From a virus: a stretch of 26,725 nucleotides of DNA. Positions 17,676 to 26,683 of the stretch are shown piece after piece. Every line of letters begins with the position of its first letter. Position 1 is the first letter of the stretch. The translations under genes were made by a program, and so were the position numbers. Below the pieces are notes generated by a model. That model was not told the DNA's origin. It did not search any database and worked only from the letters and a program-made list of their open reading frames with translations. The stretch lies in IMG/VR virus record IMGVR_UViG_3300002483_000012, positions 12,433 through 39,157 of that record, one strand, 5' to 3'.

Positions 17676-18713
17676 ATGGCACATAATATAGAAACCATGG
17701 CTTACGCTGGGGAAGTACCTTGGCATGGGCTAGGTGTTAAAGTCGGTGCAGACTTGACACCACAAGAAATGCTGAAACAAGCTAACCTTGATTGGACGGT
17801 TAGTAAGCGAAGCATCCTTACCTATAATAATGCCGACAGTGAGAAAGCTGACGACCTTATTATATCCGACGACTATTCCGTACTAGTACGTGATAGTGAT
17901 AATAGTATTCTAGGACCGTGTGGACCTAAGTTCATACCTACCCAGAATGCAGACGCGTTTACTTTCTTTAAAAAGTTTACGGAGGCTGGCGATATGAATA
18001 TGCATACCGCAGGTTCGTTACGAGGAGGTAGACAAGTATGGGGACTAGCAGAAATCAATGACGGCTTTACCCTTCCAGGTGATGACCGTATTGAGGGCTA
18101 CTTACTAGTGTCCGTGTCCCATGAGTGGGGTAAGTCTAACGAGATTAGGTTTACACCTATTAGAGTAGTTTGTAATAACACTCTTTCTATGGCTTTAGCT
18201 GACAGGAGTCAACCTGCTTTTAAAATGCCACATACTAAAGCTTTTGATGAAGACCTTATCGTCTCCGCAGAGAAAGCTCTAGGCTTGGCTAGTACTCGTC
18301 TTGATGAGTATCAAGAAAGCGCTGAGTTCCTCAGTAGTAAACAGTATAACGAAAATAAAGTTGTAAGTTACATAGCTGACGTTATGCAACCTAAACTAGC
18401 TATGCAAGAAAAGATACTACTTGAAAGTGCTAAGACTAGTGAAACTAAAGCTATTGAAACTAGACTTGAAACTCTAGAGAAACTTCAACGTACCCCTTAT
18501 AAAGTATATGAAGCCCTTGAGCAACAGCCAGGAGCTAACCTTAAAAGTTCTAAGGGTACTTGGTGGGGTGCTGTTAACGCAGTTACTTACGTCGTTGACC
18601 ATAAGTGGGGTCATGACCGTGACGCAGCAATGCATAACGCTTGGTTCGGAGCTAGGGCGAGTTTAAAAAACCGTGCTATGACTAAAGCTATTGAGTATGC
18701 ACAAGCAGCATAA
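17676..18713 (+). CDS. DUF932 phage/plasmid-like protein
   Basis: This 345-residue protein has the N-terminal signature AHNIETMAYAGEVPWHGLG, followed by LTPQEMLKQANLDWTV, then VCNNTLSMAL (about 168-177), and a C-terminal NAVTYVVDHKWGHDRD block. These are the hallmarks of DUF932 (phage/plasmid-like protein, TIGR03299 group). The family is frequent in phages and plasmids and has no established biochemical function. It has its own leader with a -10-like box, a palindrome and an AGGAG site, so it is likely separately and strongly expressed. It overlaps the next gene by 17 bp. Confidence 0.88.
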   Translation: MAHNIETMAYAGEVPWHGLGVKVGADLTPQEMLKQANLDWTVSKRSILTYNNADSEKADDLIISDDYSVLVRDSDNSILGPCGPKFIPTQNADAFTFFKKFTEAGDMNMHTAGSLRGGRQVWGLAEINDGFTLPGDDRIEGYLLVSVSHEWGKSNEIRFTPIRVVCNNTLSMALADRSQPAFKMPHTKAFDEDLIVSAEKALGLASTRLDEYQESAEFLSSKQYNENKVVSYIADVMQPKLAMQEKILLESAKTSETKAIETRLETLEKLQRTPYKVYEALEQQPGANLKSSKGTWWGAVNAVTYVVDHKWGHDRDAAMHNAWFGARASLKNRAMTKAIEYAQAA

Positions 18714-23290: not shown

Positions 23291-23328
23291 AAAGTGGGGT
23301 TTATAAAAGCCCCACTTTCCTTTATTTT
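23291..23328 (+). terminator. Rho-independent terminator
   Basis: AAAGTGGGG (23291-23299) pairs perfectly with CCCCACTTT (23310-23318) around a 10-nt loop, followed by the pyrimidine-rich tract CCTTTATTTT. This is the clearest terminator in the window. Confidence 0.85.
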
Positions 23329-25775: not shown

Positions 25776-26036
25776 ATGAATATAAAAAATATGTATACGG
25801 AGGAAGGCTGGTCTAAACCTAAAGGTGACGGCAGTGACTTTCAAATACTGGAAGATTTATCTAAGCTTCCTAACCACCTAAAAGATGAATTAGGTTTTAA
25901 TTTATCTACCGACCGTTATTACGGTCTATATATTAAGCACGTAGATGAGTACTGGACTCATAGTAATTACATCACGGTTACTTATCTTACGCTTGATATG
26001 GGCGGTGCTAAACACTACATGAGGCATACCCCATGA
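25776..26036 (+). CDS. Hypothetical phage protein
   Basis: The protein has 86 residues from the ATG at 25776, chosen because GGAGGAGG (25763-25770) lies 5 nt upstream; an in-frame ATG at 25704 has no such site. It is aromatic-rich (DRYYGLYIKHVDEYWTHSNY), probably alpha/beta, with no recognised family. ATGA overlap couples the next gene. Confidence 0.6.
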   Translation: MNIKNMYTEEGWSKPKGDGSDFQILEDLSKLPNHLKDELGFNLSTDRYYGLYIKHVDEYWTHSNYITVTYLTLDMGGAKHYMRHTP

Positions 26037-26236
26037 GTAGTGTACCGTGTAGCATTTGTAAATTGACTAAGCTAAGTCCAGAGCGTGCAGCTCTGGGCTA
26101 TAGCACTTGCTTAAGTTGTGGTGAGGAGTTTGCTCAAAAGTTAGCGAACACACGTAGAAAGCAAGTAGCACCTGCTTATAATAAAGGTGCTTACCAATAC
26201 ATAACGACTAATGATCTTAAGACTATTGGTCGTTAG
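26033..26236 (+). CDS. Conserved small phage zinc-ribbon protein
   Basis: This 67-residue protein has CSIC (6-9) and CLSC (26-29) with RAALGYSTC between them, then a basic stretch and NKGAYQYITTNDLK. This 'CxxC...ALGYxTCxxCG...NKxxYxxI' pattern is, from memory, widespread in podo- and siphophages. Function is unknown. It overlaps its upstream neighbour by 4 bp and precedes the structured leader. Confidence 0.72.
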   Translation: MSSVPCSICKLTKLSPERAALGYSTCLSCGEEFAQKLANTRRKQVAPAYNKGAYQYITTNDLKTIGR

Positions 26237-26449
26237 AGCGCTGGGTGTTCTCCTCCAAACTGTATATTCCAGCGCAAAGAGGTGGGGCGTATAACCAGCG
26301 TCCTTAAAAGCGAGAGTGGTTCACTTGTCCTCGACTAAACGAACCACTAGTTTAGTGGTGTGTGAGGGTATAGTAGCTACACGTACACTTAATGAGGACC
26401 AAAAGCAGTTGCGTACCTAATCCTCGCCACGCCTTATTAGGAGAAAGAT
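26237..26449 (+). promoter_or_regulatory. Highly structured 213-nt noncoding leader
   Basis: No gene is found here. Perfect complementary arms are: GCGCTGG/CCAGCGC (26238-26244/26269-26275); AGTGGTTC/GAACCACT (26315-26322/26341-26348); ACCACTA/TAGTGGT (26343-26349/26353-26359), which excludes the second; GTCCTC/GAGGAC (26327-26332/26394-26399), which would form a pseudoknot; and CCTAAT/ATTAGG (26416-26421/26436-26441), which covers part of the AGGAG ribosome site at 26439-26443. Alternative stems ahead of a masked ribosome site are the hallmark of a regulatory leader RNA. No known riboswitch class or tRNA is recognised. Confidence 0.6.
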
Positions 26450-26683
26450 ATGAAAATAACTATTAATGAAAAACATTATAAAGAGTATCAAATACGTAAA
26501 ATCAACAAAACTGTATGGTACGCCACCGTTACAGCAACCAGCTGGGAAAACGCTGAGGAAATAGGTCATACCGACCTTGACGTAAACTGGGAGCTACAAA
26601 CTGAAAACGATGATATAGATGTAATGGGTAGCCCTAACGATCATGAAGTACCTAATAGCGGAGAACACTATGACCCTTATTGA
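26450..26683 (+). CDS. Hypothetical acidic phage protein
   Basis: This 77-residue protein has a strand-rich N-terminus (KYEYQIRKINKT-like, with VWYATVTATSWENAEE) and an acidic C-terminus with HEVPNSGEHYDPY. The 'ATSWENAEE' segment resembles the short 'AxSxEEA' domains of small phage proteins. It lies after the structured leader, with AGGAG partly in a stem, so its translation may be regulated. Confidence 0.6.
   Translation: MKITINEKHYKEYQIRKINKTVWYATVTATSWENAEEIGHTDLDVNWELQTENDDIDVMGSPNDHEVPNSGEHYDPY

Follow-up and report, generated by a model that had tools for sequence, protein, structure and literature searches.

The stretch of viral DNA analysed here (26,725 nucleotides, referred to as the window) is part of a 59,718-base phage record. 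The DNA polymerase A of this phage has its nearest named match in phage 023Pt_psg01 (54.6%), and DSL-LC04 and the Pelagibacter phages HTVC023P and HTVC027P are also found among the nearest. The region of interest, 26237–26449, lies between a gene for a protein of 67 aa (26033–26236), which the window has in common with loci L246, L252, L270, L271, L288, and L294, and a plus-strand gene for a protein of 77 aa without a Pfam match (26450–26683). No open reading frame of at least 60 aa, the cut-off used, is contained in this region. A promoter-like site (TAGAAA, 16 nt, TATAAT) is present upstream on the plus strand at 26155–26182, such sites being no more frequent in a scan of the region than expected by chance. 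Elsewhere in the window, at 23291–23318, a 12-bp terminator-like hairpin is followed by T-rich sequence.

An earlier note on this DNA described the region as a leader containing five perfect complementary pairs, and exactly five perfect Watson–Crick stems of at least 7 nt are indeed located within it: 26238–26244/26269–26275, 26248–26254/26439–26445, 26315–26322/26341–26348, 26343–26349/26353–26359, and 26334–26340/26350–26356. Mononucleotide shuffles contain a mean of 0.84 such stems, and 1 of 200 reached five. The finer details of the description are also borne out: the third and fourth stems have 26343–26348 in common and are mutually exclusive, the fifth enters the loop of the fourth, and the second spans the ribosome site AGGAGAA. 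These stems speak for a translational switch, specific to the window's phage, that would use all of 26237–26449. The total folding energy of the leader is unremarkable (z −1.33 for the plus strand and −1.20 for the minus strand), the five-stem arrangement is not conserved in relatives, and we regard such a switch as very improbable.

Relatives of the region were recognized through L008, one among 80 polA relatives, in which a noncoding stretch, set in a gene context unlike that of the window, aligns with the 3′ part of the leader at 79% identity across 48 nt. A shared-motif scan of viral contigs gave 13 stretches, L095 and L101 among them being chance matches. Two further loci, L023 (E 1.1e-10) and L050 (E 6.8e-6), came from a covariance model made from 9 sequences; neither had been fetched by any pattern at the time of the model search. 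The changed helices of these two led to broader patterns, giving 63 stretches and then 64 stretches. The resulting family comprises 63 sequence records. Besides the window's phage and Marine virus AG-345-A17, it takes in 61 further IMG/VR contigs. A final covariance model, built from 42 sequences, was run on 100 sources; all 63 classed members match at E ≤ 6.8e-9 and the 37 non-members (29 chance pattern hits and 8 phage relatives) give no match at E ≤ 0.1, a consistency check rather than independent proof, because 42 of the 63 served to train the model and most of the others are near copies.

Other searches returned little. No relatives were found via the window's downstream and upstream proteins, and BLAST of the leader and other cores against named phages gave no member except Marine virus AG-345-A17. 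There was no convincing match in four named polA relatives, nor in P-SSM2, P-SSM5, AG-345-E15, and AG-345-L05. A pattern for the 5′ half produced chance hits only, beyond members already known, and a pattern scan of genome contigs gave 81 stretches, 4 of which had GTGGYG in the 60 nt upstream and, on inspection, did not fit. The covariance model run on 4 genomes, and on 385 genomes of one bacterial class, came back empty, a result that is uninformative there according to the tool itself.

Comparative analysis shows that 26355–26430 encodes, on the plus strand, a conserved RNA core with a predicted fold, as judged from covariance-model matches and from covariation in 42 sequences. The pairings establish, at the level of predicted structure, a tight three-way junction formed by P1 (GUGGU, 26355–26359, with GCCAC, 26426–26430), P2 (GUGUG, 26360–26364, with UACAC, 26384–26388), and P3 (GAGGA, 26394–26398, with UCCUC, 26421–26425). 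The joint J2/3, UUAAU (26389–26393), supplies its sole spare bases. A predicted pseudoknot between GGGU (26366–26369) and ACCU (26415–26418) pairs GGU of P2 with ACC of the P3 loop, tying both arms together. The next gene starts 20 nt past P1.

Across the 42 aligned sequences 97.5% of the cells are paired, compared with 79.4% when shuffled, although such pair counts lean towards the model structure because the alignment was fitted to it. The covariation score is 0.483 against 0.141 in shuffles, none of which was as high, and the best slid control gave 0.134; similarly, there are 146 two-sided cells against 38.2, again with no shuffle as high. Two-sided changes are seen in 11 of 19 pairs compared with 9.6 in shuffles, a number equalled or exceeded in 63 of 500. 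The corresponding values for a previous set of 33 rows were 98.1% paired cells and a covariation score of 0.411.

Individual helices differ in how they vary. Two-sided changes occur in four of the five pairs of P2 and in four of the five pairs of P3, the latter being paired in 100% of cells with variants that include GAGGA/UCCUC, GAGAG/CUCUC, GAGGG/CCCUC, GAGAA/UUCUC, GAUAG/CUAUC, and GAAGA/UCUUC. The outer two pairs of P1 covary (AU/UA/GC) and the inner GGU/GCC is invariant, with a U–G wobble. In the pseudoknot 96.4% of cells are paired; two of its four pairs never vary, the third departs by one unpaired cell, and the fourth, varying as UA/GC/GU, is the sole covarying one. The joint UUAAU is identical in all aligned members and was also in the search patterns. 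These patterns fixed UUAAUGAG or CUUAAUGA, ACC, and CGCC, so that the invariance of exactly those bases is partly built in, which does not apply to the covariation of the P1 outer pairs, P2, and most of P3. The family fold is absent from the window's own minimum-energy fold, and L103 has, by eye, no good P2.

All 42 rows have the U–G wobble of P1, which on the opposite strand would be an A–C; this fits the plus strand acting as RNA. A reverse-strand RNA was considered and rejected, the single reverse match (L267) being the mirror of the palindromic fold. The earlier note had named an unrecognized gene as a possible explanation of the sequence; a coding explanation is rejected, since no open frame of at least 100 codons spans the core in any of 44 loci. 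A DNA element, such as an origin or a recombination or protein site with RNA-like inverted repeats, would suit the inverted repeats, the palindromes, the single copy per record, and the apparent swapping of cores at a fixed locus. This swapping is observed in L256 and L259, where the gene families on both sides are the same as those of L008 and the core is now of the window's type, as if exchanged in place. The invariant wobble, the pseudoknot, and the co-orientation of 69 of 88 core flanks (2 opposite, 17 unclear) argue against a DNA element, and it is highly unlikely.

The tip of P2 contains the self-complementary sequence GUAGCUAC (26373–26380), a proposed homodimer contact. Of 26 distinct P2 tips, taken as the bases that separate the pseudoknot strand from the P2 3′ strand, 23 contain a palindrome of at least 6 nt, compared with a mean of 7.66 and a maximum of 15 in 500 dinucleotide shuffles, a comparison in which the rows are related and hairpin tips alone already favour palindromes. 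In the P3 loop (L3), taken as a control, a palindrome is found in 2 of 28. Seven self-complementary central tetramers are present in the P2 tips (CUAG, UCGA, AGCU, UGCA, CAUG, GUAC, and CGCG). Taken as a comparison of predicted structures, these observations show that the P2 tip has been held self-complementary in evolution. Neighbouring loop bases are unable to pair with each other in the same chain, and a homodimer joined by a kissing contact through the P2 tip is likely. In OLE and GOLLD, switching of palindromic tetranucleotides serves as evidence for intermolecular kissing loops that join a homodimer (PMC12286853), and the P2 tip has the same self-complementary loop with palindromic covariation.

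Several known RNAs offer comparisons with the core. OLE and GOLLD are similar to it in being noncoding RNAs with symmetric kissing loops in which palindromic bases switch (PMC12286853), the contact in the core being predicted from sequence. GOLLD and ROOL are phage and prophage noncoding RNAs that are often near tRNA islands (PMC12286853), whereas a tRNA is beside the core in 2 of 41 loci, and OLE, GOLLD, and ROOL are hundreds of nucleotides long, in contrast with the core of ∼76 nt that has no Rfam match. The OLE, GOLLD, and ROOL models of Rfam gave no match in the window or in the members tested. T4-like cyanophages carry CFrI, PhotoRC-II, wcaG, and glutamine riboswitch RNAs (PMC9602691); the core resembles these as a structured marine phage RNA and differs in being without an Rfam match and not bound to one gene.

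The earlier note recognized no known class, and this holds across the catalogue: searches of Rfam 15 found nothing for the window at gathering scores or for 26037–26600 at E ≤ 5, nothing for L089, L098, L090, L105, L103, L093, L334, L319, L314, and L336, and sub-threshold matches only for slices of L105 and L246 at E ≤ 10. The SRP Alu domain has a closing helix, two hairpins with pairing loops, and a short joint UGUNR; its topology is similar to that of the core, which has UUAAU as its joint and no Rfam match. The antitermination RNA put of HK022 is a short folded phage RNA, possible at a transcript start, and differs in being described as two stem-loops. No description of this RNA family was found in the literature, most subscription-journal papers and all bioRxiv preprints being outside the scope of the search.

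The genes surrounding the core are diverse. There are 42 downstream proteins in 25 clusters (three members without a downstream protein left out) and 40 upstream proteins in 22 clusters (five members without an upstream protein left out), and neighbours include DNA polymerase A, a DnaB/toprim helicase-primase, an SU10-type portal, and tryptophan halogenase. The halogenase of L319 has Synechococcus phages as its nearest named matches (45.2%), and this contig is on that account probably a cyanophage. Carriers range over a pelagiphage-like lineage, phages with DnaB/toprim or SU10-portal genes, and this probable cyanophage. A search of 40 records gave exactly one strong match in each of 29 and two in none of them; the other records gave a weak match or no match. 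A weak second match in the window's phage (L006:3152–3242, minus strand, E 0.05–0.06) is probably due to chance. ARAGORN found no tRNA or tmRNA in the window; among 41 loci, tRNA genes start 8 nt (L257) and 13 nt (L273) downstream of the core without overlapping it, and no tRNA is beside the core in the other 39.

An alternative, unlikely although deserving of weight, is that the core belongs to a 5′ leader that acts in cis, either riboswitch-like or bound by a protein. A ligand would be bound by the conserved joint and the P3 loop, and the leader would control the translation or transcription of the next gene. Such a leader also fits the 14 of 45 members that have an ATG with an RBS-like sequence 20–28 nt past the core, the aptamer-like concentration of conserved bases in the joint and loops, and L050, where the core begins at a predicted transcription start with a gene behind it. 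Against this, the scatter of downstream genes over 25 clusters provides no conserved link to one gene type, in other members the downstream gene is from 50 to >600 nt away, tRNA genes directly follow the core in two loci, and none of the records searched carries two strong copies.

A sequestering arm is not shared either. The sequence of the 5′ region (26237–26354, plus strand), which holds the remaining stems of the earlier note, is not conserved across the family; the conserved fold is not among the five perfect pairs, two of which compete with its P1. An upstream arm of at least 5 bp competing with the P1 5′ strand is found in 6 of 37 members compared with 2.1 expected, and the predicted promoter of L050, which places the transcript start at P1, leaves no 5′ arm at all in that transcript. 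The complement to the ribosome site is 7 nt in the window and at most 6 nt in 12 other members with a close downstream gene. Since relatives do not share the masked ribosome site or the mutually exclusive stems, these are rejected as conserved structure. The architecture of a translational switch proposed in the earlier note is not supported; its broader suggestion of a structured, uncatalogued RNA, with a stand-alone small RNA among the options named, is supported. The competing stems and ribosome-site complement may be important in this one phage.

An intergenic element of phage mRNA, such as a processing site, a self-cleaving RNA, or a put-like antiterminator, is less probable than a cis-acting leader and seems to us doubtful. 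The core is often tightly placed between co-oriented genes or ahead of a tRNA, and the predicted start of L050 at P1 would also be in keeping with such an element. It would leave the P2 palindrome unexplained, and no Rfam ribozyme matches the window or members tested. Furthermore, the T-rich sequence following the core in 8 of 35 members (a count without a control) suits an RNA end in some of them and not readthrough.

Additional structures are found around some cores. In L090 and L100, the 67 bases just past the core form an extra folded insert, GTGGGG...CCGCCTCAC, with the same CACGCCTTTTA end, as if RNA modules had been added in tandem. Ahead of the core in L319 (8370–8428) is a 5′ module of which 28 nt are 100% shared with a noncoding gap of Prochlorococcus phage P-SSM2 (56010–56037; L334:2001–2028), where a different 3′ segment follows, without the core. 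In L023 (5223–5335) an 11-bp stem, GTACTAGAAGT/ACTTCTAGTAC, closes a separate 5′ domain ahead of the core. In L246, L271, L280, and L288 a direct repeat, CCTTAATGAATTAA or a close variant, occurs before and partly after the core. Past the core, L008 has two more strong hairpins without a gene (18340–18540), and in L105, whose phage encodes a DnaB/toprim protein, a stretch of ∼300 bases (560–850) lacks a clear gene and could be a second RNA.

The reading that we favour, with about even confidence, is that 26355–26430 represents a new, non-Rfam family of phage RNAs, probably a stand-alone, self-dimerizing noncoding RNA. Two copies would join through the P2 tip as a kissing homodimer, and the joint UUAAU together with the P3 loop (about CUAAA...UGC) would present a surface for recognition of a partner. 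As a discrete molecule, either cut out of a longer transcript or transcribed on its own, the RNA would work at a distance from the adjoining genes; because the neighbour genes keep changing and none of the records searched has more than one strong copy, we infer that it acts stand-alone, in trans. Hosts probably differ, including cyanobacteria and others, and our guess on this basis is that the partner is most likely a conserved host machine, such as the ribosome or RNA polymerase. Somewhat more tentatively, the family can be pictured as a minimal homodimeric phage RNA of ∼76 nt, with a pseudoknotted junction and a palindromic tip, present once per genome, swapped as a module among very different ocean phages, and having a conserved host component as its target in trans.

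Self-assembling folded phage RNAs are known mainly as giants of hundreds of bases. At 76 nt, and with covariation behind its fold, the core is of a size that allows probing, native gels, and structural studies together, and marine transcriptomes can be searched with the covariance model as it stands. The spread of this RNA over different ocean phages suggests a shared, as yet undescribed step of infection.
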